Virus record (IMG/VR): IMGVR_UViG_3300033145_000798
Span: 1 to 26,958 of that record
Reading direction: 5' to 3' (one strand)
DNA from: a virus
DNA: 26,958 nucleotides
Shown here: piece by piece, positions 9,725 to 26,958 of the stretch
Numbering within the stretch: the stretch's first letter is position 1
Layout: each line of letters opens with the position of its first letter
Notes under the pieces: model-generated
What the model saw: the letters and a program-made list of their open reading frames with translations, nothing else
Databases searched by the model: none
What the model was told of the DNA's origin: nothing
Translations under genes and position numbers: made by a program

Positions 9725-9735
9725 CAAATCACACA

Positions 9736-9751: not shown

Positions 9752-9760
9752 AACTTGTAA

Positions 9761-9765
9761 GGAGA
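9761..9765 (+). promoter_or_regulatory. Shine-Dalgarno deciding the ssb start
   Basis: GGAGA (within AAGGAGAAG) stands 6 nt before ATG 9772. It supports that start over the in-frame TTG at 9745, which would place the ribosome binding site inside the coding region. Confidence 0.8.
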
Positions 9766-9771
9766 AGTGTA

Positions 9772-10200: not shown

Positions 10201-10209
10201 GAAACAGCT

Positions 10210-10242
10210 AGAAGTAGGGGTAGCTTCGGCTGCCCCTCTTCT
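10210..10242 (+). terminator. Stem-loop with UUCG tetraloop after ssb (probable terminator)
   Basis: AGAAG-T-AGGGGTAGC, TTCG loop, GCTGCCCCT-CTTCT. The arms pair over 14 positions with one G-U pair and one bulged T. It begins 10 nt after the ssb stop. The tract after it is T-containing but not a clean T-run, so termination may be partial, or the structure may protect the mRNA 3' end. Confidence 0.6.
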
Positions 10243-10252
10243 ACTAAATATT

Positions 10253-10615
10253 ATGAACCATGAGGATATTATCAATGTGGCCATTAGACACATTCCTGAA
10301 GAATTTAGAGATGATGCCAGGCAAGCTGGTTATATCGGATTACTTAGTGGTCTTAAAAATAAAGATGCAGTAAGAAGTAATTTGAGAGGATATTTGTATA
10401 AGTGCATAACTAATGAGATGATTCGTGAAATGGCCAAACTTTATAGACCATTTGCATTAAAATCTAAAATATTCAATTTACTACTTAAATACAAAAAACT
10501 AAAAGGGCTCGGTAAGGAAAAACTTCTTGGCTGCGATAAAACCACTATTGCAGAACTTGAGGAGTTGTTAAGAATTAGGCAATGGAGTTACGATAAGCAT
10601 GACAAAATCTATTAA
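10253..10615 (+). CDS. Sigma-70 region 2-like small protein (120 aa)
   Basis: Possible phage sigma factor or sigma-like transcription regulator. Residues about 4-62 follow the sigma region 2 pattern: a helix, then FRDDARQAGYIGLLSGL (compare the usual 'eDLxQeGxiGLxxA'), then LRGYLYKCITNEMIREM. The C-terminal half is basic with a possible helical region (TTIAELEELLRI) but no clear region 4 helix-turn-helix. At 120 aa it is shorter than complete sigma factors. No Shine-Dalgarno is visible before ATG 10253, which lies only 11 nt after the preceding stem-loop, so expression may be unusual. It heads the glycosyltransferase operon and overlaps the next gene by 17 nt. Confidence 0.5.
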   Translation: MNHEDIINVAIRHIPEEFRDDARQAGYIGLLSGLKNKDAVRSNLRGYLYKCITNEMIREMAKLYRPFALKSKIFNLLLKYKKLKGLGKEKLLGCDKTTIAELEELLRIRQWSYDKHDKIY

Positions 10616-12320
10616 GAAGAGAATTCTTATATCTGGAGAAGCTAGTTTTCTTTCAACTGGATTTGCTAATTTTAATAGTGAACTTTTAAAAAGATTACAT
10701 AAAACTGGGAAATATATATTAGCAGAGGTTGGTTCGTCTGCTCCTCCAAACTGTCCTGAAAGCAAACAGTTACCCTGGTCATTTTATGGAATAATGCCAA
10801 TTAATGAGCATGAAAAAAAGATTTATGATAGTCATCCTCAAAATCCTTTTGGAAAATACAAAATTGACGCAATATTAGCGGATTTCCAACCTGATATTGT
10901 TTTTGACCCTAGAGACCCATGGATGATGGAGCATTTGCAGGCTTCAAGATTTCGTAGTAATTACAAGCTGTTTTTAATGCCCACTGTTGATTCCGCCCCA
11001 CAAAAGAAGCAGTGGATAAAGGGTCTTTTCAAGAAGGCAGATGTGGTAACCACATATAGTCGCTACGGAAAACGAGTTTTAGAAGCCGAAGGTGTAAAAG
11101 TTTTTGACATCACATCTCCAGGTGTTGACCTAAATATTTGGCGCCCATTACCTCATATAGAAATTCGTGATAAATTCATCTTAAAAAAGACGCTGCTTAT
11201 CTTTGGAACAGTGATGAGGAACCAGAAGCGCAAGCTCTATCCTGACCTGTTTGAGGCATATGTGCGTCTTCGTAAGAAGTGGATTACACCACAAAAAATC
11301 GCTAAAATTAAAAAGAAAGTAATTGCCGGCCGAAAATTGACGGAAGATGAAAGAAAAGCGATGAGAATTCAGCACAGTGCTCTGTTTTGCCATACAAGTT
11401 GGCCAGATATGGGTTGGAATATTCCTCACCTCGTAGAGCGCTTTAATTTGCAAAGACATATACTCTTCACCTATAAGTGTGATTCATGTGGGTATGTTTA
11501 TGTTCATTGGTTTAGCCCATCTACCGCACAAGGAATTACAACCTGTCGTAAGTGTGGAAAGGCGGCTGCTCATATGCCAGGAACCCACAGTGGAGTATCA
11601 GAAAAAGACCTTATTGAGTTGTTTAATCTTATCGATATTTATGTTCATCCAGCTATTTGTGAAGGTTGGGGCCTTCCGATTATGGAGTCAAAGGCTTGTG
11701 GTGTTGCAGGATTGTATCAGAATTATTCTGCCATGGAAGACCATGTAGAAAATGGTGGTGGTTTGCCTATTAAGGTTCAAAGACTATATCATGAAGCAGA
11801 AACAGAGGCAATCAGGTCTATGCCTGACATTTCTGATATGATGAAAAAGATGGAACTACTTGCTTTTAATGAGAATAAGCGTAATAAACTTGCAAAACAA
11901 GCAAGAGCTTGTGCTGAAAGGATGCATTCTTTGGATTTAACCGCCAATAAGATTGAATGTATTTTGGACGAATTGGAAATTTTAAACAGGGATTCAACTT
12001 GGGATAAATTACCTAGGTTTGAAACAGTTACGGCAGAAAGACCAGGTAACAATATATCAGACGAGACATTTGTTAGGTGGTGTTATACAAATATTCTTGC
12101 ACGAGAACCAGAAGATAAAGGCTTTACTGACTGGATGGCGAGTTTAAAGAAGGGAACTTCTAGAGATAATGTTGAGGCGTTTTTTCGTGACCAGGTGGAT
12201 GGCAGAAATAAATTTGAAGAAGCAAGGTGGAAGAAGAGTTTGGCAATTAGAGGTATAGAAATAGATATTTCACCAGCAGGTATGGCTATTTCGAATATTA
12301 TGCCAGGGATGTTAATATGA
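10599..12320 (+). CDS. GT-B (GT4-like) glycosyltransferase with zinc ribbon insert and DUF4214-like C-terminus
   Basis: Predicted retaining glycosyltransferase transferring a sugar from a nucleotide donor. The N-terminal Rossmann domain includes GFANFNSELLKRL. The donor domain starts near FGTVMRNQKRK (about 202-212) and ends with CEGWGLPIMESKACG, where Glu355 and Glu363 form the GT4 E-x7-E motif. Inserted in the donor domain is a four-cysteine zinc ribbon (C294, C297, C316, C319), unusual for GT4 enzymes. Residues about 487-545 (FVRWCYTNILAREPEDKGFTDW...FF) resemble DUF4214, a helical module found at the ends of secreted and glycan-related proteins. At 573 aa it is longer than a plain GT4 (about 370). 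The stop overlaps the next gene's ATG. Confidence 0.85.
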   Translation: MTKSIKKRILISGEASFLSTGFANFNSELLKRLHKTGKYILAEVGSSAPPNCPESKQLPWSFYGIMPINEHEKKIYDSHPQNPFGKYKIDAILADFQPDIVFDPRDPWMMEHLQASRFRSNYKLFLMPTVDSAPQKKQWIKGLFKKADVVTTYSRYGKRVLEAEGVKVFDITSPGVDLNIWRPLPHIEIRDKFILKKTLLIFGTVMRNQKRKLYPDLFEAYVRLRKKWITPQKIAKIKKKVIAGRKLTEDERKAMRIQHSALFCHTSWPDMGWNIPHLVERFNLQRHILFTYKCDSCGYVYVHWFSPSTAQGITTCRKCGKAAAHMPGTHSGVSEKDLIELFNLIDIYVHPAICEGWGLPIMESKACGVAGLYQNYSAMEDHVENGGGLPIKVQRLYHEAETEAIRSMPDISDMMKKMELLAFNENKRNKLAKQARACAERMHSLDLTANKIECILDELEILNRDSTWDKLPRFETVTAERPGNNISDETFVRWCYTNILAREPEDKGFTDWMASLKKGTSRDNVEAFFRDQVDGRNKFEEARWKKSLAIRGIEIDISPAGMAISNIMPGMLI

Positions 12321-13465
12321 TGCCAAAAGTTTTATATGTTGCCCCACTGAATGATTTTAGTGGATATGCAGAAGTTGCTAGAAATTATGTTAGGGCTTTA
12401 GATTTGGCAGGAGTGAATCTTGTAACAAGAGACCTCAAGTATGATAGTGGAGAATACAAGAAGAGCGAGCGAGAGAAGGAGTTGGCTACAAGGGATATAC
12501 AAGATGTAGACATCATTATTCAGCAAACTACGCCAAATGAAACAGAATACAAGGATGGAGTATTCAATATAAATGCATTTTGTTGGGAGACTGATAGGAT
12601 TCCAAAACAATGGGCCGACATGCTAAATAAGATGGACCTCATTTTGGTTCCTATCGAACAAAATAGAATTGCCGCACAAAAAAGTGGAGTTGTAAAGCCG
12701 ATAGTTGTTGTTCCATATTCCTTTAATATTGAACGATATAAAAGAAAGATTGATTCACTTGTAATTCCTGGAGCTGATAACAGTTTTAAATTTTTGTCAA
12801 TTTTGCAGTATTCCAAAAAGAAAGGAATGGACCCTCTTCTTAAGGCATATTTTACGGAGTTTACAAGAGAAGACCCAGTCATCCTTATACTAAAAGTATA
12901 TATTGGACCTAACGATGGGATTCAGGAGCGTAACCGAATTTTATCTATAATCAATGCAATGAAGGGAATATTACGTTTAAACAATTATCCGCCAATTAAG
13001 CTGATTCATGAAGTAATGTCTCATGACCAGATAGAGAAGTTATATGTATCATCGGATTGTTATATTTTGCCATCTAGAGGTGAGGGCTGGGGTGTGCCTC
13101 ACTTTGACGCGCTAGGCTGGGGACTTCCTACTATTGCAACAAAGGGAACTGGTCCAGAGGCATTTATAACTGATGAGTGTGGTTGGTTAGTTGATTCTCA
13201 TCTAAGTCCAGTCTGTGACATGCCACATCCACACAATTTTATGTATACAGGAAAAGACAATTGGCGAGAGCCCCACGTTTGTGATTTAAAAACATGTATG
13301 AGAAATGCATTCACATTCTGGAGAAAGAAAGACGCTTTTGACTTATGGTCTATCCGCCAAAAGGCAGCAAGGGAAAGAGTTAAAGACTTTAGTAATGAAG
13401 TTATCGGTCCGCAATTAAGAGATGTGATTATGAAATACTACACACAATGGAAGAAAGTGAACTAA
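12317..13465 (+). CDS. GT-B (GT4-like) glycosyltransferase
   Basis: Predicted GT4-type glycosyltransferase of 382 aa. The N-terminal glycine-rich loop (NDFSGYAEVARNYVRAL) is followed by the donor domain starting at FKFLSILQYSKKKGMDPLL (about 157-176) and by ILPSRGEGWGVPHFDALGWGLP. The E-x7-E motif appears as E256-x7-D264, a conservative Glu-to-Asp change in the second acidic residue. CNQ-type sugar specificity cannot be read from sequence. It overlaps both neighbours: ATGATG at the 5' end, and the endonuclease gene start at its stop. Confidence 0.87.
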   Translation: MMPKVLYVAPLNDFSGYAEVARNYVRALDLAGVNLVTRDLKYDSGEYKKSEREKELATRDIQDVDIIIQQTTPNETEYKDGVFNINAFCWETDRIPKQWADMLNKMDLILVPIEQNRIAAQKSGVVKPIVVVPYSFNIERYKRKIDSLVIPGADNSFKFLSILQYSKKKGMDPLLKAYFTEFTREDPVILILKVYIGPNDGIQERNRILSIINAMKGILRLNNYPPIKLIHEVMSHDQIEKLYVSSDCYILPSRGEGWGVPHFDALGWGLPTIATKGTGPEAFITDECGWLVDSHLSPVCDMPHPHNFMYTGKDNWREPHVCDLKTCMRNAFTFWRKKDAFDLWSIRQKAARERVKDFSNEVIGPQLRDVIMKYYTQWKKVN

Positions 13466-14064
13466 TGTTGTTGCCATCCAATAAATGTGGTATTTATTAT
13501 TTAAAGTGTAATTCGAATAAAAAATTATATATAGGAAGTTCTATTAAAATTAGAAAACGTTTACTTCGACATATTGGAGAATTGCAAACAAATAGACATT
13601 GCAATCCTATTCTACAAAATATATGGAATAAATATGGAGAAAATAGTTTTTGTTGTGGTGTTTTAGAAATAGTTAAAGACAGAAACATTTTGAATTTATG
13701 TGAAAAGTTCTGGATTGACAATAATATTGACCGTGTAGTTAATATCATATTAGACCCACGAAATTTACAAGGCAAGAATAATCCATTTTTTGGCAAAATT
13801 CATACAGATGAGACTCGTAAGAAAATGTCTAATAATCATTGTAATTTTAATGGAATAAATAATCCGTTTAGTGGCAAAAGTCACAGTCCTAGTTCTTTGG
13901 CAAAAATGTCATTATCAAAAGGGAGTTTATCTCGTGATGATATTTTAAGAATCAGAATATTAGCAAAAACTAATACTATATCTAAAACAGCCGATATAGC
14001 TGGTATTAGTTATGAATTAGCCAGACTAATTGTAAGAGGAAAGTGTTATCAACATGTTCGTTAA
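13465..14064 (+). CDS. GIY-YIG homing endonuclease 1
   Basis: Free-standing homing endonuclease of about 199 aa. The GIY-YIG signature is CGIYYLKC ... KLYIGSS, followed by the conserved HRHIGEL / HCNPILQNIWNKYGENSF region and the catalytic-type Glu (CEKFWID). Two NUMOD3-type DNA-binding repeats follow (NPFFGKIHTDETRKKMS and NPFSGKSHSPSSLAKMS), then a C-terminal helix-turn-helix-like part (ISKTADIAGISYELARLIVRG). I chose ATG 13465, which overlaps the TAA of the preceding glycosyltransferase (TAATG); ATG 13447 is an in-frame alternative. The stop lies inside the start of the next glycosyltransferase gene. The sequence is strongly AT-rich compared with its neighbours. Confidence 0.93.
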   Translation: MLLPSNKCGIYYLKCNSNKKLYIGSSIKIRKRLLRHIGELQTNRHCNPILQNIWNKYGENSFCCGVLEIVKDRNILNLCEKFWIDNNIDRVVNIILDPRNLQGKNNPFFGKIHTDETRKKMSNNHCNFNGINNPFSGKSHSPSSLAKMSLSKGSLSRDDILRIRILAKTNTISKTADIAGISYELARLIVRGKCYQHVR

Positions 14065-15130
14065 TTTAATTGCTCCAATCTCGGCACTCGGTTATGGGGT
14101 CGTAGGGTACAATGTGTTAAAACATCTGTATAACGTAGGACATACTGTATCATATTGGCCAATAGGTAAGTCAGAATGGAGTGGAGACCCTCAAGCACAA
14201 ACTGTAATTAAAGAGACTATAAAAAATGCACAGATGTATAATTCGGCTGCACCGTCAATTCGTATTTGGCACCAGAATCAGCTTGATATGTTTCCTGGAA
14301 AGGGTCCGCGCATTGGTTGGCCAATTTTTGAGCTTGATACTTTCAATGAAGTAGAACAACATCAATTGAAAAATCTCGATATAGTTTTTGTCTGTTCTAA
14401 GTGGGCAAAGAATATTGTAGAGGCAATAGTAGATGCACCGGTTTATGTAGTTCCTCTAGGAGTTGACCCAACAGTATTTTATAGGGACGAGGAAGTTCGC
14501 AAGCATCGTCCGTATTGGACACAAGATTCGACTGTGTTTATTAACGTTGGAAAGTGGGAAAAGCGAAAGGGACACGAAGAGTTGCTAAAGGCTTTCAACG
14601 CTGCGTTTGAGCCTAATGACGATGTTGAACTTTGGATGTTAAACGACAATCCATTTTTGCGTGAATCTGGTGGGAATGAAGAATGGAAGAGGAAGTATAT
14701 TTCATCGAAGATGGGAGGAAAGATTAAGATTCTTTCGAGAATGAATACCCAGGCTGAATTAAGGGCGCTCTTTAATCAGGTCGATTGTTTAGTTGTACCA
14801 TCAAAAGCAGAAGGTTGGAATTTAGAAATACTTGAATGTATGGCTTGCGGAGTTGATGTTATAGCAACAAATTATTCTGGACATACTGAATATCTTAATA
14901 ATCAAAATGCATACTTAATTGAACCAAATGGTTTAGAAAAAGCAAATGATGGAATATGGTTTCATGGTAATGGTAATTGGTGTACATTTGATATTGATGA
15001 GTTAATAGAATTGATGAGATACTATTATAATAATAAACAGAACAATGCTTTAAAATCTAAAGAACTTCAAAAAACAGTTGATTTATATTCATGGGAAAAT
15101 ACAATTAAAAAAATTGAGATGGCAATTTGA
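14054..15130 (+). CDS. GT-B (GT4-like) glycosyltransferase
   Basis: Predicted GT4-type glycosyltransferase of 358 aa. Visible parts: N-terminal loop ALGYGVVGYNVLKHL, the linker VVPLGVDPTVFY, the donor-domain start INVGKWEKRKGHEELL (about 163-178), and VVPSKAEGWNLEILECMACG with Glu253 and Glu261 as the E-x7-E pair. From about base 14865 to the end the coding sequence becomes markedly more AT-rich, matching the endonuclease gene that follows. This could be a co-conversion tract or a recombined 3' end. It is flanked on both sides by GIY-YIG genes. Confidence 0.88.
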   Translation: MFVNLIAPISALGYGVVGYNVLKHLYNVGHTVSYWPIGKSEWSGDPQAQTVIKETIKNAQMYNSAAPSIRIWHQNQLDMFPGKGPRIGWPIFELDTFNEVEQHQLKNLDIVFVCSKWAKNIVEAIVDAPVYVVPLGVDPTVFYRDEEVRKHRPYWTQDSTVFINVGKWEKRKGHEELLKAFNAAFEPNDDVELWMLNDNPFLRESGGNEEWKRKYISSKMGGKIKILSRMNTQAELRALFNQVDCLVVPSKAEGWNLEILECMACGVDVIATNYSGHTEYLNNQNAYLIEPNGLEKANDGIWFHGNGNWCTFDIDELIELMRYYYNNKQNNALKSKELQKTVDLYSWENTIKKIEMAI

Positions 15131-15765
15131 TAAATTGTGGTATTTATATAATTAGAAATATAATAGATAATAAAGTTTATATAGGTAGTTCTAATAGAAT
15201 AAAGTCTAGAATTAGTTATCATAAGTATTGTCTTAAAATAAATAAGCATTGTAATCAACATTTACAAAATGCATGGAATAAGTATAGAGAAATTAGTTTT
15301 ATATTTGGTACAATTGAGCGATGTAATAAGTGTAATTTGTTAATTCGTGAAGAATTCTATATAGAGAAGTTTGAGTCTTGGAAAAGAAGTTGTGGATATA
15401 ATCTTCAAAGATGTCCATCAAGACCAGTAATGTCAGAGGAAACTAAAAGAAAAATATCTGAATATTGGAAGAATCATATACATCCATGTATAGGCAAAAA
15501 GCGCAGTTTAGAAATAAGAAAAAAAATTTCTGATGGATTACCAGATATGGGTGGTAAAAATAATAGTATGTATGGCAGAAGGCAAACTAAAGAATCTATT
15601 AGAAAAAATTGTTTATCAAATAGTGAATTTTCCAAGAGCGATATATTAGAAATTAGAGAATTGAGTAAAATAATGACTGCAAAAGAAATATCTATATTAA
15701 AGAATATGAAATATAAAAGGATATGGAGGATATTATCAAATAGAACCCATAAGGATATATTATGA
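15127..15765 (+). CDS. GIY-YIG homing endonuclease 2
   Basis: GIY-YIG homing endonuclease of 212 aa with a TTG start that overlaps the stop of the preceding glycosyltransferase (TTGA). Signature: CGIYIIRN ... KVYIGSS, then HCNQHLQNAWNKYREISF, closely similar to endonucleases 1 and 3. The catalytic-type Glu lies in REEFYIEKF. Middle NUMOD3-like segments (MSEETKRKISEYW, GKKRSLEIRKKISDG, MYGRRQTKESIRKN) and a C-terminal helix-turn-helix-like region (KEISILKNMKYKRIWRILSN) should contact DNA. Very AT-rich. Its stop overlaps the next start by 4 nt. Confidence 0.92.
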   Translation: MINCGIYIIRNIIDNKVYIGSSNRIKSRISYHKYCLKINKHCNQHLQNAWNKYREISFIFGTIERCNKCNLLIREEFYIEKFESWKRSCGYNLQRCPSRPVMSEETKRKISEYWKNHIHPCIGKKRSLEIRKKISDGLPDMGGKNNSMYGRRQTKESIRKNCLSNSEFSKSDILEIRELSKIMTAKEISILKNMKYKRIWRILSNRTHKDIL

Positions 15766-16217
15766 AACTATTAAGTCAAACTATTTATAGGACAGATTGT
15801 TTAAATAAAGGCTCCGAGATTAATTGCGAAATTACTAAACTTAAAGGTGTAGGCTTAGTAGAAATAGCCGCAACAATATATGTTCCAACTATAAACCTTA
15901 AAGGTGGCGCCAAGCTACATCGTTCACATTATTCAAACATAAAGCAGTCTTATGCAATATTTCAATATATTGGAAATCCCAAAGAATTGGAAAAATCCAT
16001 AATTAGAGAAACTTGTTATGGAGATTTTATATCTATAGGAAGTACAGATGGCGGCGTAATAGAAAACTGTATAGAAAAATTGATTAATGGAGCCTGGGTA
16101 GTTCTATCTGGTAAAAAATACATTATCGATGATATAGTTAATATTGTAAAGTCAACCAAGTGTATTTGTGACTATTATGACGTAATTAATAGTGGCTGTA
16201 AATGTGGGGGTTCTTAA
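15762..16217 (+). CDS. Hypothetical protein with Cys-rich C-terminus (151 aa)
   Basis: I do not recognise this protein. It seems soluble and beta-rich, with a C-terminal group of cysteines (CICDYYDVINSGCKCGG) that might bind metal. It starts with an ATGA-type overlap with the endonuclease stop and ends directly before the next glycosyltransferase start. Its AT content resembles the adjacent GIY-YIG gene more than the glycosyltransferases, so it may have arrived in the same transfer. Confidence 0.6.
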   Translation: MKLLSQTIYRTDCLNKGSEINCEITKLKGVGLVEIAATIYVPTINLKGGAKLHRSHYSNIKQSYAIFQYIGNPKELEKSIIRETCYGDFISIGSTDGGVIENCIEKLINGAWVVLSGKKYIIDDIVNIVKSTKCICDYYDVINSGCKCGGS

Positions 16218-17228
16218 ATGAATCAAGTTAAACAAATGACACAAATTTTCAGCATGGTCAATACACCTAAGTATAAGCCGATACTAGTTAAATGTCTTGC
16301 TGTTCATAATGAAGAAGAATGGATAGAGGCAAACTTAAGGAATAACTATGACGAATACGACAAGATACGTATCGTGGAGGGTGCTGTGGAAGGAAGGCCT
16401 GGTAGCACGCCTGAGGGTCATTCCACGGATGACACCCTTTCTATCATCAGAGGATTCCCAGACCCAGACGGCAAGCTCGAGTTATACATTGGAGAGCGAC
16501 ACTTCAAAAGTTTAGAGGAACAAAAACAGACATTTCTAGACCATGCTAAAGAAGGTGAATGGCTATTTATCGTTGATTGTGATGAGTTCTATCATGAAGG
16601 GGAAATTACTAGAGTTCGCAAAGCTATAGAAACTCAGCTTGGAGCGTCAGAGATTATTCCTACATTCCTTCATTTTTATAGAGACATTAGACACGTAAAG
16701 GCTCCTCATCCAGAGTGGCAGCCACAACATCAGCGAATTATTCGCTATCAGTCCGGAATGCGTTATCATACACATCCAGTTGCTACAGCACCAGATGGGA
16801 AATGCACATACTTTGATACAAGTTATCAACCAAAACGATTTACTATGCCCGATTTATTTATATATCACTATGGACATGCTAAAGGTAAGGAATTCCATAA
16901 GATGAAACAAGAGTTCTATACAAAAGAGCTTGAGAAGTTCCGTCTTGAAGATGGAACAAGTGCATCTGACAAATTTGATGAGAAGTTTGTTGAATTTATG
17001 GAGCATACCGAAGACCGAAATACAATTCTATCGTATCTTGGATTACACCCTTGTCCAGTTGAAAAACTTCCAATCTATGATGAAAACGAAGAAACATACG
17101 AAGGAGTGGAGTTTACAGATTGGAAAGCTAACTTTGTATATGCAGAACATGCGCTTCCTACAATAGCATTATTTATGATGGGTCCATGGCAAAAAATAAA
17201 ACCATTCTTAAACGTAATTGAGGCGTGA
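16218..17228 (+). CDS. GT-A-type glycosyltransferase (336 aa)
   Basis: Predicted GT-A (GT2-like) glycosyltransferase. The N-terminal ILVKCLAVHNEEEWIEANL resembles the nucleotide-binding start of GT2 enzymes, followed by a GHSTDDTLSII segment (DDxT-type) and WLFIVDCDEFY, where Asp120-Cys-Asp122 is the DxD-type metal/donor motif. Histidine-rich stretches follow (HRIIRY-like, YHYGHAKGKEFHKM). A C-terminal region of about 110 residues is not assigned. The start follows directly after the preceding TAA (TAAATG). The acceptor is unknown. Confidence 0.75.
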   Translation: MNQVKQMTQIFSMVNTPKYKPILVKCLAVHNEEEWIEANLRNNYDEYDKIRIVEGAVEGRPGSTPEGHSTDDTLSIIRGFPDPDGKLELYIGERHFKSLEEQKQTFLDHAKEGEWLFIVDCDEFYHEGEITRVRKAIETQLGASEIIPTFLHFYRDIRHVKAPHPEWQPQHQRIIRYQSGMRYHTHPVATAPDGKCTYFDTSYQPKRFTMPDLFIYHYGHAKGKEFHKMKQEFYTKELEKFRLEDGTSASDKFDEKFVEFMEHTEDRNTILSYLGLHPCPVEKLPIYDENEETYEGVEFTDWKANFVYAEHALPTIALFMMGPWQKIKPFLNVIEA

Positions 17229-17229
17229 T

Positions 17230-20481: not shown

Positions 20482-20510
20482 ACATTAAACTAACAGTTAG
20501 TAAGGCTTAG
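20478..20510 (+). CDS. Possible 10-codon leader ORF before the protease gene
   Basis: An ATG overlapping the preceding stop (ATGA) opens a 10-codon frame (MNIKLTVSKA) that ends in TAG, 4 nt before the protease ATG. It could pass ribosomes on to the protease by reinitiation. It may equally be chance. Confidence 0.2.
   Translation: MNIKLTVSKA
20489..20501. repeat. 13 bp palindrome upstream of protease gene
   Basis: ACTAAC-A-GTTAGT, a perfect inverted repeat with one central base, in the short gap before the protease gene. It could be a protein-binding operator. It is too short to be a terminator. Confidence 0.35.
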
Positions 20511-20514
20511 GAAT

Positions 20515-21390
20515 ATGAGAAAAAAAGTTTTAATGTCCGTATTATTTACCGTTTTGATAGGATGGTTAATTGCCGCATTGATAATATTTCGTCCCGCACA
20601 GCCCCCAGATGTTGGTATAAGTGATACAGTTTGGAATTCGTATCATTCAACATGTCGTATAACCATGAATCATTCAAGTGGAAAATTCACGGGAACAGGA
20701 GTGACACTGCATACTGGATATATCCTTACGGCAGCCCATATTATTGACGTAAACAATAATAAGAAGTTAGACTTGGACGAACATAATCTCGATGTGGAAT
20801 TTTTTGGCGCAGTGGCAGACATTCAGTCCGCAACCGTAGTGTTTTGTGGGGACTATGAGGGTTATGATATTGCAGTCTTGCAGGTGCAAAAGCCACCAAA
20901 AACAAATATTCATCTAGTAGATATTGACTTTGGAGAGAGAGTTTTTACCATTGGATGCACAAAGGGTGCAGACCCCAACATCTCAGAAGGAGTTGCTTCT
21001 TCTAATCATGATGGACTTGCTAGAGCTGGCATGGCGGTGTGGAGGGGAAATAGTGGTGGTGGGATATGGACCCAAGGAGAAGGTCTTGCTGGTATTGTGA
21101 CTCGACTTGGCTTAGGAAGCATGAGGTCAAATATTAGACTTATGATTCCAACGAATGGTGGAATGATGATGATTCGCGTAAGACATAATACTAGATTTCC
21201 ACTAGCAAATTGGTGTGAGTATATTCCGGCTGTAGATATTAGAGATGTGTTGGATGATAAGGGACTAGGGTTTGTTTATGATATACATGATGAGCCAATT
21301 CATATCAATCCATATTATTTTCTTATGTTTTTTGAGATATTTGGAGTATTGATTTGTGGATGGTACTTTAAGAAACACCTCATGGGTTAG
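20515..21390 (+). CDS. Membrane-anchored trypsin-like serine protease with EF-hand-like loop
   Basis: Chymotrypsin-fold serine protease of 291 aa. The catalytic triad can be read: His75 in LTAAHIID, Asp118 in GYDIAVLQV, Ser180 in RGNSGGGIW. Residues about 5-25 form an N-terminal hydrophobic segment after MRKK (membrane anchor or signal), and residues about 267-284 a second one (YYFLMFFEIFGVLICGWYF), followed by KKH. The catalytic domain therefore probably lies outside the cytoplasm, held by two anchors. Directly after the catalytic His, D78-x-N80-x-N82-x-x-L-D86-x-x-E89 matches a 12-residue EF-hand calcium loop. No PDZ domain is seen. Neighbouring genes make glycans or modify them, so a surface or envelope target is plausible but not shown. 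Confidence 0.9.
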   Translation: MRKKVLMSVLFTVLIGWLIAALIIFRPAQPPDVGISDTVWNSYHSTCRITMNHSSGKFTGTGVTLHTGYILTAAHIIDVNNNKKLDLDEHNLDVEFFGAVADIQSATVVFCGDYEGYDIAVLQVQKPPKTNIHLVDIDFGERVFTIGCTKGADPNISEGVASSNHDGLARAGMAVWRGNSGGGIWTQGEGLAGIVTRLGLGSMRSNIRLMIPTNGGMMMIRVRHNTRFPLANWCEYIPAVDIRDVLDDKGLGFVYDIHDEPIHINPYYFLMFFEIFGVLICGWYFKKHLMG

Positions 21391-21559
21391 ACAGTGTGCT
21401 AATTGTAAAGAAACAATGCCACTGAGGGAGCTGGTTTGCTATTGTGGTGGACCCGTATGTACAAAGTTGTCAAATAAGGATTATAAAACAATAAATGATT
21501 ATTATCGTAGAAGAACACTATATTTTCTGCGAAATACAGGGGTGAAAGATGGAAACTAG
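21356..21559 (+). CDS. Small Cys-rich zinc-ribbon-like protein (67 aa)
   Basis: Unrecognised 67-residue frame with a GTG start, overlapping the protease gene by 35 nt and the radical SAM gene by 11 nt. It has C-x2-C (CANC) and CYCGGPVC, which together suit a zinc-binding knuckle. The rest is basic and Tyr/Arg-rich. The start is uncertain because no good Shine-Dalgarno or ATG is available upstream of the cysteines. Confidence 0.5.
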   Translation: MDGTLRNTSWVRQCANCKETMPLRELVCYCGGPVCTKLSNKDYKTINDYYRRRTLYFLRNTGVKDGN

Positions 21560-22511
21560 TTTTACATCAGCAAGTGCATTTCCGGCAAAATTACTTATAC
21601 AAAAGGTAATTGATTCTAGAGGCAAAATTATGCCTGTACATTTACAGATGAGTCTAACAAACAAGTGTACCTTAAATTGTTCATTTTGTTCTTGTAGCGC
21701 AAGAGATAAGAAACTTGAGCTTAGTCTTGATAATATCAAAAGAATAATTGGCAGGGCTAGGTTTGTTGGAACAAAGGCTGTCACTATTACTGGTGGTGGC
21801 GAACCACTATGCCATCCGCAGATTAAGGAAATACTGAGGTATATAAATAGATTAGGAATTAAAATTGGACTTGTTACAAATGGGACTGTATTACATTTGT
21901 TAGATGCCGAAGATTGGTCTAGGATATCCTGGTGTAGAATTTCAAGTGCTGATTTTCGCAAATGGACAGAAAAGTACGAACAAAAACTTTCAAATGCTAT
22001 TAAATTAGGTCCCGCAGTAGATTGGGCATTCAGTCATGTTTTAGGGGCAAGTCCTAATATATCCATTATTACATCAATAATTAAATTTGCTAATGAAAAC
22101 AATTTTACGCACATAAGGATAGTTTCTGACCTTTTGGACCTTGATAATGTCCCGTCTATGAGTAGTATTAAAGGAGCCTTGTCTGCCGTAATTGATGATA
22201 GTAAAGTTATTTATCAGGAACGCAAGGACTCAGTTTGTGGTGTTAAAAAATGTCTCATTAGTTTATTAAAGCCAGTCGTAGGAACAAATGGACGACTTTA
22301 TCCATGTTGCGGTACCCAATACGCCCAAGCAACTCCTAGTAGAGATTTTGGTAAAGATGATATGAGTATGGGTGAGGCTCAAGATTTAACTGATATTTTC
22401 CATAAACAAATCCCATTTGATGGTTCAAAATGTAAAACATGTTATTACTCAAATTATAATTCGGCCTTAGATATACTAACATCTGATGTCCAACATAAAG
22501 AATGGGTGTAA
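21549..22511 (+). CDS. Radical SAM enzyme
   Basis: Radical SAM protein of 320 aa. The 4Fe-4S motif is C40-x3-C44-x2-C47 (CTLNCSFC). TGGGEPL (81-87) is the SAM-binding GGE motif, and GIKIGLVTNGT is a conserved barrel strand. The C-terminal region (VGTNGRLYPCCG... then CKTCYY) resembles a reduced SPASM or Twitch auxiliary cluster domain. Such enzymes modify peptides, sugars or nucleotides, and members occur in glycan and peptide modification clusters. Here the substrate is unknown. The gene overlaps both neighbours. Confidence 0.9.
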   Translation: METSFTSASAFPAKLLIQKVIDSRGKIMPVHLQMSLTNKCTLNCSFCSCSARDKKLELSLDNIKRIIGRARFVGTKAVTITGGGEPLCHPQIKEILRYINRLGIKIGLVTNGTVLHLLDAEDWSRISWCRISSADFRKWTEKYEQKLSNAIKLGPAVDWAFSHVLGASPNISIITSIIKFANENNFTHIRIVSDLLDLDNVPSMSSIKGALSAVIDDSKVIYQERKDSVCGVKKCLISLLKPVVGTNGRLYPCCGTQYAQATPSRDFGKDDMSMGEAQDLTDIFHKQIPFDGSKCKTCYYSNYNSALDILTSDVQHKEWV

Positions 22512-22518
22512 GTATACC

Positions 22519-23298
22519 ATGTTAACTATGGACTATTATACAATCATTGGTAGAGACCCAAAATTATTCCAGGGTCACGTAGATAATGTATTACGAAATG
22601 CTGGAGCACCGCGAGATTTATGGACGTTTAATGTAATCGTGTATCATAATGACCGCATACCACAGGCAACAACTGATGAAATTGTTGCAATTTGTGAAGA
22701 GCATGACATCAATTATCACCTACATTACGAAGACCCTACAAAAAGTTTTATTCAGAGACTTTATGATTGTTGGAATTTAGGCTATACGCTTGGTAAACAT
22801 CCTCTTGTTTTTAGAGGTGGAAGTGACCAAACTTGGTATCCTGGCTCATTTGATGTAATACTGGATTGCTATAATGGATTGCCGGGAGACGCAATCTTGC
22901 AAGCACAAACGATTGAGTCGATGTTTAGTCATCCTGGGTCAAGACACTTTTGTCGTGATTTTGGACTAACATACGAGACCTATAAGGAAGATGAATTTAT
23001 TGAGTTTTGCAAAGAAATAATTAAACCTGGTCCATATACGATTCTAGAAGCATTAGAACACTGGAAGAAACCTACTAGAATGATTAATGGGCCACCAAGA
23101 ACCGATGGATGTAGCTGGTTACAGCCTAGAAAATTCTGGGAGAAATATGGACCTATGCCAACAATTATAGGTGGTGTAACTGGTGACGTTATTGTTCATG
23201 ATAGATATCAAGCTGCAGGAATTCCAAATTATCTCGTGGGAGATTGTATCACATACCATTTTGTGATGGGGGAAAGACGAAGTAACGGTTTATTGTGA
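22519..23298 (+). CDS. Glycosyltransferase-like protein, GT-A type (about 260 aa)
   Basis: Tentative glycosyltransferase. The order of elements is GT-A-like: an N-terminal strand and helix region (YYTIIGRDPKLFQGHVDNVLR), a strand-rich middle (FNVIVYHNDR), HPLVFRGGSDQTWYPGSFDVIL with SDQ in the place of a DxD motif, and a late NGPPRTDGCSWLQPRKFWEKYGP stretch reminiscent of acceptor-binding loops (FWEKYG). I start it at ATG 22519. ATG 22486 is possible but would overlap the radical SAM gene by 26 nt. It is followed by a GIY-YIG gene with a GTGA overlap, as other glycosyltransferases here are. Confidence 0.55.
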   Translation: MLTMDYYTIIGRDPKLFQGHVDNVLRNAGAPRDLWTFNVIVYHNDRIPQATTDEIVAICEEHDINYHLHYEDPTKSFIQRLYDCWNLGYTLGKHPLVFRGGSDQTWYPGSFDVILDCYNGLPGDAILQAQTIESMFSHPGSRHFCRDFGLTYETYKEDEFIEFCKEIIKPGPYTILEALEHWKKPTRMINGPPRTDGCSWLQPRKFWEKYGPMPTIIGGVTGDVIVHDRYQAAGIPNYLVGDCITYHFVMGERRSNGLL

Positions 23299-23948
23299 TT
23301 GGTGTCTATATGATTAGATGTTTACCAACAAACAAAGTGTATATTGGTTCTTCTAAAAATATTGAATATAGACTTAATTTTCATAAGCGCAGATTAAAAA
23401 ATGGTAAGCATAGAAATCCTTATCTACAAAACGCTTGGTCAAAGTACAACGAAAAACAGTTTAAGTTTGATATTTTAGAAGAGTGTTATTTGGATGTTAT
23501 TCTAGACAGAGAGAAACATTATATAGAAGAATATGATGCTTGTAATCGGAAGTGTGGATTTAACATTGTGCGTGACCCCAATAGACCTACTCATACACAA
23601 GAAATTAAGGATAAAATATCAGCAACATTAAATGGTAGAATTATAGGTAAAGAGTGGAGAAATAAGATGTCTTTATCTAGGATTGGTAGTAAAAATCCTA
23701 ATCATAAGAGCAATCTTAGTGATGAAAGAAAGCTATGGATGTCGAAAAGGATTTCCGGAGAAAAGAACTATAATGCAATTTTAATGGAATCTCAAGTTAG
23801 AGTTATTAAATACGCCTTATCTCTTAAGAGAATTAAGCCAACTATTAAACAACTTGCTACACTTTTTGGTGTTAGTTATAATACGATATGGCATATTCGT
23901 AAAGGAGATAGGTGGGGTTTTGTTAGAATTAAAGGAGCGGGAGGATAG
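23295..23948 (+). CDS. GIY-YIG homing endonuclease 3
   Basis: GIY-YIG homing endonuclease of 217 aa with a GTG start overlapping the preceding stop (GTGA). The signature appears as IGVYMIRC ... KVYIGSS, followed by HRNPYLQNAWSKYNEKQF, clearly related to the other two. The catalytic-type Glu lies in DREKHYIEEY. NUMOD3-like segments follow (THTQEIKDKISATLNG, MSLSRIGSKNPNHKS), and a C-terminal helix-turn-helix of the IENR1 type (IKQLATLFGVSYNTIWHIRKGDRWGFV). Confidence 0.93.
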   Translation: MIGVYMIRCLPTNKVYIGSSKNIEYRLNFHKRRLKNGKHRNPYLQNAWSKYNEKQFKFDILEECYLDVILDREKHYIEEYDACNRKCGFNIVRDPNRPTHTQEIKDKISATLNGRIIGKEWRNKMSLSRIGSKNPNHKSNLSDERKLWMSKRISGEKNYNAILMESQVRVIKYALSLKRIKPTIKQLATLFGVSYNTIWHIRKGDRWGFVRIKGAGG

Positions 23949-23950
23949 AA

Positions 23951-24286
23951 ATGTGTGATAGGTTTTATACGGCAGAAAATGTATTAGATTTAGTTCAACG
24001 GGTTTTTAACGTTGTAGTTGTAGGTCACAAAGATAAGACGGAATGGATTTCTAATGTAGCTTTTCCTGTAAAAAATGGAATGTTTACCATGGCAAATAGT
24101 GGTAAAGGCAAAGACCATTATGATGGATTATATATGTTGTTATATCAAATAGCCAAATTCAAAGATGAAGGTAAGATGCCTGAGAGAGTTATGCTGATGC
24201 GTGAAGGAGAAAGTCATCCAATGGATGTTGCAATAGAACTTTTAGAGGAAAAGCGTAGAATAAAAGAATCAGGAATTAATGATTAA
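23951..24286 (+). CDS. Hypothetical protein (111 aa)
   Basis: I do not recognise this protein. It is soluble, with a mixed alpha/beta N-terminal part (VFNVVVVGHKDKTEWISNVAF), a Gly/Lys-rich loop (ANSGKGKDHYDG) and a charged C-terminal helix (ELLEEKRRIKESG). It starts 2 nt after the endonuclease stop and overlaps the following gene by 8 nt. The context gives no specific role. Confidence 0.6.
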   Translation: MCDRFYTAENVLDLVQRVFNVVVVGHKDKTEWISNVAFPVKNGMFTMANSGKGKDHYDGLYMLLYQIAKFKDEGKMPERVMLMREGESHPMDVAIELLEEKRRIKESGIND

Positions 24287-24965
24287 GTATATCCAGATAT
24301 TTGGATTACAATGCAGTGGAACGAATGTATTACAAAACTTGTGTAATATTAATTTTGATGTATCACTAGGTAATAGATATGGTGGGAAACATGGTAAGAA
24401 TTTACGTTTTGCAAGAGATAAGGATTTCAGTGATACGTTGTTCTTGTATATACAAAAAAATATTTGGGCCTGGGTATGTTCTATGAAAGATACTACGCAT
24501 GGAGTAATGAAACTGGGTCTTCCAATTAGTCGGGCCATGAAAGAGCCTTGGGCGGATGGTGATTTTAAATTTGATAACATAATAGAAATGCGCAATTATG
24601 TATTAGGCATGTTTAGAAATTTTGAAAACATAGTACCAAATTGGGTAAATATTAATCATGATATGATGGTATTTAATCCGCAAGTGGTTTTACAGAATAT
24701 TACTAATAGATATGATATATTATCGTATGATGCTCCAATTAATGTAGAAATAGCAAAGCGTTATAAGGGCGATATGAAATGTGGCCCATTTAATAGAAAG
24801 CAATATTATAGAACTAAAGCATATATGGACAGATTATCAAAGTCAGATATTGAATTTATTCGTGATAATTATGATATGTCTTTTGAAAAGTGCAATTGGC
24901 TAAAGATGTTTGATGACTATAGTCCATATGATGAAAATGGAGAGTTTAATGACAGTGGAACATAA
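24279..24965 (+). CDS. Sulfotransferase-like P-loop protein (228 aa)
   Basis: Predicted sulfotransferase. The N-terminal IQIFGLQCSGTNVLQNLC looks like the 5'-phosphosulfate-binding loop (G-x3-SGT) of PAPS-dependent sulfotransferases. A second region (NIWAWVCSM ... WVNINHDMMV) may hold the 3'-phosphate-binding part, but I cannot place its Arg/Ser residues with certainty. The next gene encodes an APS kinase, which makes PAPS, the donor for this reaction. That context strengthens the call. No membrane segment is seen, so a cytoplasmic acceptor is likely. Confidence 0.65.
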   Translation: MIKYIQIFGLQCSGTNVLQNLCNINFDVSLGNRYGGKHGKNLRFARDKDFSDTLFLYIQKNIWAWVCSMKDTTHGVMKLGLPISRAMKEPWADGDFKFDNIIEMRNYVLGMFRNFENIVPNWVNINHDMMVFNPQVVLQNITNRYDILSYDAPINVEIAKRYKGDMKCGPFNRKQYYRTKAYMDRLSKSDIEFIRDNYDMSFEKCNWLKMFDDYSPYDENGEFNDSGT

Positions 24966-25470
24966 AGGTGCGGTTATTTTATTTACGGGATTTAGCGGTA
25001 GTGGAAAAAGCACAATTGCAACTGCTGTTAAAAACCGTATAAGTAATTGTGTTATTTTGGATGGTGATGTTGGCCGCAAGACTTATTCAAAAGATTTGGG
25101 CTTTTCAATTAAAGATAGAATACTTAATAATGAGCGAGCCGCCGCCATAGCTTCATACCTAGAAGCAGAAGGATATATAGTATTAGTTAGTTATATCTCT
25201 CCTGCGGAGAGAATAAGAAGTATATATCGTAAGCTGTGTAATAACTATATTGAGATTTATGTAAAATGTCCAATTGAAATTTGTGAACGTCGTGACCCTA
25301 AAGGGTTATATAAGCAAGTTCGTGATGGAAAAATAAAATCATTTACTGGTATTCATAGTGATGCACCATATGAAGAACCGCAATCTCCAGATATTACTGT
25401 AAATACCGAGATTAAATCGATTACTGGCTGTGTTAATTTAATTATTAAAGTATTGAAAGAAATGTTATGA
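24949..25470 (+). CDS. cysC: Adenylylsulfate (APS) kinase
   Basis: Phosphorylates APS to PAPS, the universal sulfate donor. P-loop GFSGSGKST (residues 14-22), LDGD (37-40), KDLGFSIKDRILNNERAA (48-65), the RDPKGLYKQVRDGKIKSFTGI stretch (115-135) and SDAPYEEP (137-144) match the APS kinase family through its length. I choose ATG 24949, preceded by GGAGAG at 24939-24944, giving 173 aa. The ATG at 24910 would add 13 residues that overlap the sulfotransferase gene. Two sulfotransferase-like genes flank it closely. No ATP sulfurylase is visible, so APS would come from the host. Confidence 0.9.
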   Translation: MTVEHKGAVILFTGFSGSGKSTIATAVKNRISNCVILDGDVGRKTYSKDLGFSIKDRILNNERAAAIASYLEAEGYIVLVSYISPAERIRSIYRKLCNNYIEIYVKCPIEICERRDPKGLYKQVRDGKIKSFTGIHSDAPYEEPQSPDITVNTEIKSITGCVNLIIKVLKEML

Positions 25471-26345
25471 AATATTCAGAAGAATTCCATAAGCCCGATT
25501 ATACTAAAGGTCCATATCCAAAACATCATAGTGTAGGTGGAGAATCCATCATAGATAAACCACATGCACAACCTCGAATGACTGGAGATGTATTAAAGAC
25601 CGATAGAGATAAACTTGCTATTGGGTTAAGTTATAATAAAAATGGAAGTAAAAGTGGTGATTTTGGTCCATATATTCAAAGATGTGGAGAAGGACTTCCT
25701 AATTCGTTTAATTTAGATTTTTTAAATAATATGAAATTTTGTGCCGGAAATATTCATCCACATACTGGATTGATACTTTTTTCGCTTGCACTAAATTTGC
25801 GACCTAAAGTAATTATAGAAACTGGTACATATTATGGATATTCGACATTATTTTTAGCAAAAGTATGTGAGATTTGGAAAGAAGGTATGGTATATACAAT
25901 AGATACTAAGCCTAAACAAATTGATAATATAGTTAGGTCTCATCCGTATATTGAATGTGTCAATGGCAATAGTACGAAAGTGTTACCAGAATTATTAAAA
26001 AAGGTAAATGAAGTGCAGTTTGCATTTTTAGATTCGTGGAAACGTATTGCTTTTTCTGAATTTAAACTTGTAGACCCATATTTGGCCGAAGGTGGTATAG
26101 TTGTTTTTCATGATACTCAATTTCTAAATACAGGAAAGACCTTATATCATAAAATATTGAAAGAATACAAGGGTAGATATGATGTAATGCTATTTACTGG
26201 TTTTCCACATAAAGATAATGGACATAAATTCCTTGGTAATGCAGATGACCGTGGTTTGCTTGTTTTAAGAAAATGCTTTACAAAAGACCCGTTTATAAAT
26301 GCCGCAGACTACAATACTAAGGCATTTGGTGCAAGACTAATATAA
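25467..26345 (+). CDS. Class I SAM-dependent methyltransferase (292 aa)
   Basis: Predicted methyltransferase of the Methyltransf_24 / O-methyltransferase type. VIIETGTYYGYSTLFLA (about 115-131) is the SAM-binding motif I (E-x-G-x-x-x-G), VYTIDTKPKQ the acidic strand 2, and QFAFLDSWKRIAFSEFKLVDPYL followed by GGIVVFHDT the motif IV to VI region. The N-terminal 90 residues, rich in Lys, His and Pro, are not part of the core. It follows APS kinase with a 4 nt overlap and precedes a second sulfotransferase-like gene, so methylation and sulfation may act on the same molecule. Confidence 0.85.
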   Translation: MKYSEEFHKPDYTKGPYPKHHSVGGESIIDKPHAQPRMTGDVLKTDRDKLAIGLSYNKNGSKSGDFGPYIQRCGEGLPNSFNLDFLNNMKFCAGNIHPHTGLILFSLALNLRPKVIIETGTYYGYSTLFLAKVCEIWKEGMVYTIDTKPKQIDNIVRSHPYIECVNGNSTKVLPELLKKVNEVQFAFLDSWKRIAFSEFKLVDPYLAEGGIVVFHDTQFLNTGKTLYHKILKEYKGRYDVMLFTGFPHKDNGHKFLGNADDRGLLVLRKCFTKDPFINAADYNTKAFGARLI

Positions 26346-26958
26346 TGGATAATACATCTGCTGTAGATATGAAAAAGTTTATTGTCGTGTGTGGGCCGGG
26401 GAGAAGTGGGACATCGCTTGCCTGTGAGCTTGTAAAGACATGTGGGTACAGCTTTGGTATCTGTAATCCTCTACAAAAGTTTGGATTACGTAGCGGCTAT
26501 AATGAAAATCCGCTTACCAATTGTCAAGGCAAAGCCATCGACCCAGCAATAAATAAGTTGGAGAAGCAAGGTGCGAATGCTGTTAAATTAATTCATCTAT
26601 ATGCTCAATGGATTCCAATATTAATTAAGCGTGGCTATGATGTTCATATTATCATCACTAGTAGAGACCCAGACGAGGCCATTACCAGTGGTAATAAACT
26701 ATATACAGGATGGAAACCAGAAGCAATTCCTGCTATTTGTGGAACATTTAAGCGAATACAGAACGAAACACAGAGATACCTCAAGTCTTCAAGATATAAT
26801 GCTTATTCTCTTCCATTTCAAAAGGTAATTGAAAAAGACCATGAGACACTTTCGGGTTTAGTAGATTTTTTATGTGCTGATAGATGTAATATACTTTCAC
26901 ACTTAAGACAAATAATAAATCCTGACATTGTTCAAAATGCCGTTAATAATCCATTAAG
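26345..26958 (+). CDS. Second sulfotransferase-like P-loop protein (3' end cut by window edge)
   Basis: The frame is open from ATG 26345 to the right edge, at least 204 codons without stop. Residues about 13-27 (IVVCGPGRSGTSLAC) form a P-loop like that of sulfotransferases (G-x-x-RSGTS), and VHIIITSRDPDEAI is a strand followed by the Arg-Asp-Pro typical of the 3'-phosphate-binding region in sulfotransferases. The start shares one base with the preceding methyltransferase TAA (TAATG). The gene's codon use is less AT-rich at its 5' end than the preceding genes. It lies two genes after APS kinase. Confidence 0.7.
   Translation, partial: MDNTSAVDMKKFIVVCGPGRSGTSLACELVKTCGYSFGICNPLQKFGLRSGYNENPLTNCQGKAIDPAINKLEKQGANAVKLIHLYAQWIPILIKRGYDVHIIITSRDPDEAITSGNKLYTGWKPEAIPAICGTFKRIQNETQRYLKSSRYNAYSLPFQKVIEKDHETLSGLVDFLCADRCNILSHLRQIINPDIVQNAVNNPL

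Follow-up and report, generated by a model that had tools for sequence, protein, structure and literature searches.

Background

The closest described counterpart, in gene make-up, of the locus considered here comes from eukaryotic giant viruses: according to the passages of PMC10117803 that concern it, the Megavirinae (Moumouvirus australiensis ma457-ma468 and Cotonvirus japonicus) carry a cluster that combines a bifunctional sulfate adenylyltransferase/adenosine 5'-phosphosulfate (APS) kinase, a sulfotransferase, glycosyltransferases (GTs) and sugar-nucleotide enzymes. The same passages propose that this cluster sulfates virion sugars in the course of fibril glycosylation, state that experimental validation is needed, and note that the Tupanviruses are devoid of the sulfotransferase. 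Here we analyze a locus of comparable composition from a bacterial virus, namely the run of genes at positions 10599-26958 of the IMG/VR virus record IMGVR_UViG_3300033145_000798, a phage record of 26,958 bp (G000) whose entire length is hereafter termed the window, together with its counterparts on longer contigs of the same clade. Judged by gene make-up, both systems are viral GT and nucleotide-sugar clusters that include an adenylyl-sulfate kinase as well as a sulfotransferase (here in the form of candidates), and in both the sulfotransferase is a variable part. They differ, as far as those passages describe the giant viruses, in the kind of host, in the bifunctional nature of the giant-virus kinase, and in the presence of one sulfotransferase there as against six candidates here.

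Bacterial O-antigen and capsule loci, such as the rfb region of E. coli K-12, likewise have GTs and nucleotide-sugar enzymes side by side in a single operon, but include flippase and polymerase genes, none of which was found on the phage contigs. Virion glycosylation in mycobacteriophages resembles the present case in that the phages have GTs of their own; the mycobacteriophages of Freeman et al. 2023 reportedly encode few GTs and no sulfation genes. Glycans on the capsid and tail-tube subunits of GT-encoding mycobacteriophages are mentioned, at second hand, in a passage of PMC12619734. Sulfotransferases have been noted in OM43 phages (PMC10580990), glacier viruses (PMC8290583), a coral phage (PMC11309003) and an underground estuary (PMC10829341); in the relevant parts of these reports they figure as single genes or co-occurrences, in contrast to an APS-kinase pathway inside a GT cluster. 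An earlier reading of the window from its letters alone (the sequence-only reading) had known of no described phage system combining these functions. This stands to the extent that no phage sulfation-glycosylation system was found in the open-licence PubMed Central (PMC) literature, which does not by itself establish non-publication, and needs qualification in that the Megavirinae cluster of the same make-up and the single phage sulfotransferases have been published.

Results and Discussion

A predicted sulfation module within a phage glycan cluster

The analysis presented below suggests that the phage, a member of an uncultivated clade, produces a glycan of its own in the host cytoplasm, that an accessory module sulfates it, and that the acceptor is most likely cytoplasmic, with structural proteins the likeliest, a proposal that seems to us evenly poised between right and wrong. 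In the pathway envisaged, a conserved run of GT4 and GT2 proteins, along with nucleotide-sugar and methyl-transfer enzymes (observed in the long relative G001), would build an oligosaccharide; the phage APS kinase would convert host APS to 3'-phosphoadenosine 5'-phosphosulfate (PAPS); P-loop sulfotransferases would move sulfate from PAPS onto the glycan; and the latter would be attached in the cytoplasm to phage structural proteins as carrier. The genes on which the sulfation steps would depend lie at the right end of the window:

24279-24965, + strand: ST1, a P-loop sulfotransferase-like protein with GLQCSGTN and KNIWAWVCS (K for R); 55% identity to G001 72432-73121
24910-25470, + strand: APS kinase (adenylyl-sulfate kinase); PF01583 E 4.4e-46, 157.1 bits against a cut-off of 21.1; TIGR00455 178.3 against 138.7 bits
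25467-26345, + strand: O-methyltransferase, rhamnosyl O-methyltransferase/CmcI-like; PF13578 E 2.3e-14; PF04989 39.6 bits against a cut-off of 23.2
26345-26956, + strand: ST2, a P-loop sulfotransferase-like protein cut by the window end, with GPGRSGTS and RDPDEAITS; 76% identity to G001 69138-69773

The APS kinase is canonical in sequence. A profile of the window and G001 proteins matches solved APS kinases with a best E of 7e-46, and the window enzyme shares with one of these (5cb6) the motifs GFSGSGKST at position 27, DGD at 51, ISP at 96, KGLY at 131, FTG at 145 and YEEP at 154; the G001 version is fused to a DUF2061 domain. APS kinase produces PAPS, which sulfotransferases consume, and the formation of PAPS from APS is predicted for this enzyme as well. 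ATP sulfurylase (PF01747) is absent from all seven records searched, implying that APS must be supplied by the host, and PAPS reductase/CysD (PF01507) is absent from the same seven, implying that PAPS is not reduced by phage enzymes. The kinase gene overlaps that of ST1 by 56 bases. The route from APS through PAPS to the sulfotransferases proposed in the sequence-only reading is plausible.

The assignment of ST1 and ST2 as sulfotransferases is likely, not proven. PAPS-dependent sulfotransferases contain an N-terminal 5' phosphosulfate loop and an R-x7-S motif that contacts the 3' phosphate, and both proteins display a phosphosulfate-loop-like N-terminus and an R/K-x7-S motif, the presence of which is not proof. 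Neither has a match of its own in the Pfam or NCBIfam libraries, and a genome-scale search with PF13469 returned none of seven records at E 0.001; with the same profile the G001 homologue of ST1 scores 27.4 bits against a cut-off of 27, and that of ST2 13.6 bits, under this cut-off. The structure model of ST2 is of low confidence (pLDDT 55.1, pTM 0.60). Its top four Foldseek matches in the PDB are all sulfotransferases (E 2.9e-3 to 9.8e-3; none at E 0.001), and the first 21 rows returned by VIA-align are sulfotransferases as well (Z 9.8 to 8.7), followed by adenylate kinase (Z 8.7). At this level of model confidence (pLDDT 55.1), the best matches by both methods are tyrosylprotein sulfotransferases (Foldseek E 2.9e-3; Z 9.8). 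The model of ST1 was unusable (pLDDT 33.7). Hence, the two sulfotransferase-like proteins of the sequence-only reading are upheld by homologues, motifs and, for ST2, a fold model, but not by any profile match of their own; sulfotransferase activity is supported, not proven.

A search with ST2 uncovered G001, a contig of 177,375 bp that shows synteny with the window over the interval running from ThyX through ST2 and that was also the sole match to ST1. The cluster genes common to the two stand in the same order and share 48-84% protein identity. G001 bears genes typical of tailed phages, namely a terminase (E 5.4e-29), a portal, a tape-measure-like protein, DnaB, ribonucleotide reductase and a major head protein (E 1.5e-6), which bears out a phage origin for the window. 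Its cluster further encodes NAD epimerases, RmlC/FdtA-like and RmlD proteins, a UDP-GlcNAc 2-epimerase, a GDP-mannose 4,6-dehydratase, a mannose-6-phosphate isomerase-type cupin, a nucleotidyltransferase, a UDP-glucose/GDP-mannose dehydrogenase-like protein and methyltransferases. Six sulfotransferase candidates can be recognized on it, four within the cluster (73072, 72432, 71030, 69138) and two outside: 134775, an NKWYS/PF10364 protein (44.1 against 25.1 bits) encoded between the portal and the gene preceding the head protein, and 141981, a paralogue of ST2 near the terminase large subunit gene (TerL). Besides the NKWYS protein, one of the six is based on PF03567 (22.2 against 22 bits), one on PF13469 (27.4 against 27) and three on motifs or homology, and five of the six have the phosphosulfate-loop-like N-terminus and R/K-x7-S at the usual spacing. 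Ratios of nonsynonymous to synonymous divergence (pN/pS) between the window and G001, rough values given that synonymous sites are mostly saturated, are 0.18 for ST2, 0.33 for ST1 and the APS kinase, 0.14 for the single-stranded DNA-binding protein (SSB) and 0.11-0.25 for four GT or GT-like genes tested, as expected of shared genes under purifying selection. Given that the order recurs in G001 at 48-84% identity with pN/pS of 0.11-0.33, chance can be excluded as its source.

Predicted sulfation as an accessory module

The sister phage G009 (167,041 bp), whose head protein is 75% identical to that of G001, retains the gene order of the G001 glycan cluster. The interval between the GT-A-like gene and the dehydrogenase gene contains nine genes in G001, including ST3, ST1, the APS kinase, ST4, a TylF-like methyltransferase and ST2, and two other genes in G009. 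In tblastn searches of G009 at E 1e-3 the flanking genes were found while the APS kinase and all six sulfotransferase candidates were absent, and the PF03567 and PF01583 profiles also gave no match on this contig. Thus, the kinase and the six candidates, which occupy three loci, are jointly present in G001 and jointly missing in G009, a co-absence that comes from one genome pair and carries no statistical test. Since G009 keeps the glycan cluster without the kinase or the candidates, the predicted sulfation forms an accessory module, superimposed on a glycan pathway that is conserved.

The glycosyltransferase run and its conservation in the clade

The window is classed as linear and is hence a fragment; an exact search for a contig overlapping its right end gave no match. 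Its left third encodes ThyX and a PD-(D/E)XK exonuclease, together with DnaE in two halves, N-terminal and C-terminal, that have a dUTPase, small open reading frames (ORFs) and a thymidine kinase between them, as well as SSB and a sigma-like protein. The remainder, 10599-26958 on the + strand, is a single co-directional run of mostly overlapping ORFs: from SSB to the window end, 20 of the 21 gene junctions are spaced by at most 52 bases, the majority of them overlapping. The neighbouring block and the run upstream of ST1 comprise:

2027-10615, + strand: conserved neighbour block with DnaE N half (2027-5200), DnaE C half (7221-9689), dUTPase, thymidine kinase, SSB and sigma-like gene
10599-12320, + strand: GT4a, a GT-B protein with a zinc-ribbon-like insert and C-terminal DUF4214; PF00534 E 2.2e-10, PF13946 E 7.2e-10, phrog_2170 E 8.5e-22; 79% identity to G001
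12317-13465, + strand: GT4b, GT-B; PF00534 E 8.2e-11, phrog_2170 E 8.5e-25; overlaps GT4a by 4 bases
13447-14064, + strand: GIY-YIG/NUMOD3 homing endonuclease; PF07460 E 3.1e-15, PF01541 E 6.1e-8; no G001 match
14054-15130, + strand: GT4c, GT-B; PF00534 E 1.9e-19; 73% identity to G001
15127-15765, + strand: GIY-YIG/NUMOD3 homing endonuclease (Pfam); no G001 match
15762-16217, + strand: 151-aa protein; no Pfam match, no G001 match
16218-17228, + strand: GT2a, GT-A; PF00535 E 4.4e-4, 20.7 bits, under the cut-off of 23.3; 81% identity to G001
17218-17961, + strand: GT2b, GT-A; PF00535 E 8.7e-28; 61% identity to G009, no G001 match
17958-18887, + strand: GT4d, GT-B; PF13692 E 1.5e-10; 72% identity to G001
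18884-19651, + strand: GT2c, GT-A; PF13704 E 4e-9, phrog_13126 E 3.9e-9
19648-20481, + strand: propeller-like protein; sub-cut-off WD40/propeller matches only
20515-21390, + strand: trypsin-like serine protease; PF13365 E 9.6e-10; N-terminal hydrophobic (membrane) segment at 6-24
21549-22511, + strand: radical SAM enzyme; PF04055 E 8.4e-17, phrog_21308 E 1e-13; CxxxCxxC at 40-47, SPASM-like tail
22486-23298, + strand: GT-A-like protein, recognized by eye; 84% identity to G001, whose copy is 51% identical to that of G009
23295-23948, + strand: GIY-YIG homing endonuclease; PF01541 E 1.6e-11; no G001 match
23951-24286, + strand: 111-aa protein; no Pfam family, no G001 match

All the genes named in the sequence-only reading are thus present in one direction. 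The four GT4 proteins (10599, 12317, 14054, 17958) exceed a Pfam cut-off, as do the GT-A proteins at 17218 and 18884 a cut-off of their own, with 16218 falling under it; the count of about eight GTs therefore holds for seven with profile support, one of them sub-cut-off, and is unproven for the eighth (22486), which has no match in Pfam, NCBIfam or PHROG. The calls of radical SAM enzyme, APS kinase and methyltransferase are confirmed by Pfam profiles, the latter two exceeding their cut-offs. Three homing endonucleases, the trypsin-like protease and the propeller-like protein are additional members of the run that had gone unmentioned. The radical SAM protein may be a sugar-modifying enzyme: the phage family phrog_21308 is matched both by this protein (E 1e-13) and by GT4c (E 4.1e-4), which suggests that the two functions are linked elsewhere. 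No paper connecting DUF4214 with GTs was found in a literature search.

Several insertions distinguish the window from G001. The three GIY-YIG/NUMOD3 homing endonucleases lie between glycan genes, mostly overlapping their neighbours by a few bases, and G001 is without all three. G001 is also devoid of the intein-like inserts seen in both DnaE halves of the window, at residues ~385-828 of the N half (2027-5200) and ~226-498 of the C half (7221-9689), of which one contains LAGLIDADG and the other HNH. The trypsin-like protease of the glycan cluster (20515-21390), in turn, has a counterpart of 66% identity in G001 and a weak match in G009.

In G009 the order is SSB, sigma-like protein, GT4a, GT4b, GT4c, GT2a, GT2b, GT4d, two GT2c-like proteins, protease, epimerase, RmlC, RmlD, GlcNAc 2-epimerase, GT-A-like protein, UDP-sugar dehydrogenase, epimerase, nucleotidyltransferase, HAD, cupin and GDP-mannose dehydratase. 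A search with the head protein yielded at least 587 candidate contigs, 80 of which were kept, and the order of DnaE and GT4a was surveyed in 13 contigs, five by BLAST (the window, G001, G009, G004, G040) and eight by profile. A split DnaE followed by GT4a was found in 12 of the 13, the sole miss being G013, where the 120 kb examined, of 122 kb in all, gave no DnaE; the GT core is thus a trait of the clade. The DnaE N and C halves are separate in 12 of 13 contigs, with ~35% identity in the distant ones, SSB lies between the split DnaE and GT4a in 11 of the 12 (not G031), and GT4b comes next in 11 of 13 by label, with a weaker GT4 match in G032. An artefact or bacterial contamination is ruled out by the recurrence of the DnaE-GT4a order in G001, G009, G004, G040 and seven of the eight further contigs with phage head genes. 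G021 (L218-L228) has DnaE halves, SSB, GT4a and GT4b in two sets, one near 52 kb and the other near 198 kb, as a result either of an assembly that joins two phages or of a true duplication.

Sulfotransferases, on the other hand, are patchy across the clade. PF03567 matches were obtained in 6 of 36 records (drawn from the 80 kept), namely G001, G023, G038, G040, G041 and G042, four of them exceeding the cut-off and G040 and G041 being near-copies; our own profile adds a weaker match in G033. The APS kinase occurs in one of the 36 (G001), which rules it out as a clade trait. G040 (L162-L170) and G041 have five Sulfotransfer_2 matches, as well as a DUF1559 protein (PF07596 E 2e-40). DUF1559 is a planctomycete-rich family, and further proteins of these two records resemble planctomycete DUF1501 and cytochrome-type families; this offers only a hint of a planctomycete host for them.

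The acceptor and alternative explanations

The sequence-only reading had noted the lack of a flippase, polymerase or export gene, and had listed virion proteins, phage DNA and a host precursor as candidate targets. No such export gene was found on the window or its long relatives. In a hydropathy scan, which left out ORFs crossing stretch ends (e.g. G001 112,987-118,611), all of the 35 ORFs of the window, 280 of G001, 148 of G004, 57 of G003, 237 of G040 and 28 of G008 had fewer than three membrane segments; three-segment ORFs were limited to two in G007 (79 and 114 aa) and a single one in G009 (100 aa). At a cut-off of four segments, eight further contigs with 1,710 ORFs in total yielded none. 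In the positive control, the E. coli K-12 rfb region, RfbX showed nine segments and WbbH six. The initiating polyprenyl-phosphate GT (PF02397) was absent from all five contigs searched, with control matches in 9 of 14 genomes. As no flippase, polymerase, initiating GT or multi-spanning protein was found, synthesis of the glycan is probably completed in the cytoplasm, and as these, together with an oligosaccharyltransferase, are missing, the acceptor is most likely cytoplasmic. We infer that the glycan is the sulfate acceptor and is carried on the virion, virion proteins being our best guess as the target. In favour of the latter we count the head-adjacent cases, i.e. the NKWYS protein and ST2 paralogue of G001, the Sulfotransfer_2 gene of G004 and the post-portal run of G005/G007 (see below).

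Remodelling of the host surface, in which the phage enzymes would make or alter and sulfate a lipid-linked precursor of lipopolysaccharide or capsule that the flippase and polymerase of the host then export, for instance to block superinfection, is in our estimate unlikely. Surface polysaccharides are where RmlD, GDP-mannose-type enzymes and NKWYS (annotated as a "putative capsular polysaccharide synthesis protein") typically occur, a phage exporter would be unnecessary where that of the host serves, and the bacterial-looking record Y4 (L056) has an APS kinase, GTs and an ABC transporter together. The absence of PF02397 from the five contigs nevertheless speaks against this, as does that of multi-spanning proteins, which leaves no GtrA/GtrC-like membrane proteins, and the glycan cluster is placed beside replication genes; moreover, no convincing integrase was identified among the scanned proteins (one weak match, E 0.0096), so that there is no sign of lysogenic conversion. 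That same placement, with GT4a behind the split DnaE in 12 of 13 contigs, would suit hypermodification of DNA, in which phage bases would receive sugars from the GTs, with methylation and sulfation of these sugars to follow as a protection against restriction; a passage of one paper states, citing Iyer 2013, that nucleotide modification based on GTs and sulfotransferases has been reported in phages. We hold this to be quite improbable: among five records searched, ThyA-like PF00303 was found in G007 only and not in G000, G001, G003 or G004; Tet/JBP (PF12851) gave no match in seven records, a weak argument in that the control was silent too; and a set of eight GTs accompanied by several deoxysugar enzymes is larger than the one or few GTs usual for modified DNA.

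Two further explanations would detach sulfation from the glycan. The sulfotransferases could act on tyrosines of virion or host proteins or on a small molecule, their position in a GT cluster being incidental, as the tyrosylprotein sulfotransferases among the best fold matches of the ST2 model and the sulfotransferase genes apart from GTs, beside portal and TerL, might indicate. We give this little credence, since the module is embedded in the glycan cluster, with the GT-A-like gene on one side and the UDP-sugar dehydrogenase on the other, since G003, from another lineage, likewise groups an APS-kinase-like protein with a radical SAM enzyme, two Sulfotransfer_2 proteins, GTs and epimerases, and since heparan sulfate 3-O-sulfotransferases are equally good fold matches within 1 Z. 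That the APS kinase is an ordinary auxiliary gene of sulfur metabolism unconnected with glycans appears hardly credible: cysC is indeed named in several metagenome papers on viral auxiliary genes, and the kinase is found alone in some phages, but the PAPS reductase/CysD and ATP sulfurylase families are absent, and the kinase gene, besides overlapping a sulfotransferase-like gene by 56 bases, is missing along with all six candidates in G009.

A number of observations weigh against a sulfated virion glycan as proposed here. Its product is predicted from gene content. ST1 and ST2 profiles compared with PDB sequences retrieved no sulfotransferase, only unrelated or designed proteins, and showed no match to each other. 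The APS-kinase cassette is known from two clade records only (the window and G001), the kinase is missing in five of the six PF03567-positive clade records, and elsewhere, in LR756500 and L026/L027, it lacks a recognizable sulfotransferase neighbour. The fetched flanks of 80 head loci contained a sulfotransferase in four cases, from two lineages and all represented in our own profiles, and a GT in none; head-adjacent sulfotransferases are hence rare, and placement in the head module as a general rule is ruled out. The glycan cluster itself adjoins replication genes, as do DNA-modifying genes in some phages. Finally, a host call from GTDB was dropped, given that six contigs from metagenome-assembled genomes fall into five taxa that do not agree with one another (Alphaproteobacteria, SAR202, two Flavobacteriales, Chitinophagia and Gemmataceae), and no host is named.

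Comparable gene groupings in other phages

In G003 (L004), tail or Hoc-like proteins are accompanied by a sialyltransferase-like protein, a GT2, an APS-kinase-like protein that covers only 98 of 152 profile positions, a capsule-type GT, a radical SAM enzyme, a TylF-like methyltransferase, two Sulfotransfer_2 proteins and epimerases. In a different lineage, G005/G007, the portal gene is followed by genes for a glycerophosphotransferase-like protein, a methyltransferase, a nucleotidyltransferase-GNAT protein, an aminotransferase and another methyltransferase, and the run ends with a nucleotidyltransferase-APS kinase fusion (187.6 bits), a Sulfotransfer_2 protein and a GT4; the G007 contig starts within the kinase gene, a point that G005 covers. 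On G004, 2-5 kb separate TerL from a Sulfotransfer_2 gene and from a gene for GDP-mannose dehydratase. APS-kinase matches in the "phage" records Y4, MT838634 and MT839805 have bacterial-looking neighbours and were excluded from the phage count. The first of these, OQ572406 (Pseudomonas phage Y4, L056; unverified), resembles a bacterial surface-polysaccharide region with an APS kinase, GTs and an ABC-transporter-like ATPase.

Implications

A wider reading, which we offer tentatively as falling a little short of an even balance, is that an abundant clade of uncultivated tailed phages coats its particles with glycans built wholly in the cytoplasm, to which one lineage would add a PAPS supply and up to six sulfotransferases, resulting in a negatively charged, sulfated coat. 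If true, this would parallel, in bacterial viruses, the glycan coats that have been proposed for giant viruses. Phage sulfotransferases, repeatedly reported from metagenomes and called unclear in function in a passage of PMC10580990, would here be placed in a defined pathway with its own PAPS supply. Were virions to carry sulfated glycans, there would be consequences for how phage particles adsorb, how stable they are in the environment and how they are recognized by immune systems. More generally, a GT that stands behind the split replicative polymerase across a clade of at least 587 candidate contigs points to glycosylation as a basic feature of the biology of these phages.

Two minor features of G001 may be added. 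A run of proteins at 126574-131164, downstream of the major head protein, is common to G008 and mostly unmatched in G009; these proteins are possible glycan carriers. The glycan cluster also includes a glutamine synthetase gene at 63875-64864 (PF03951, PF00120).

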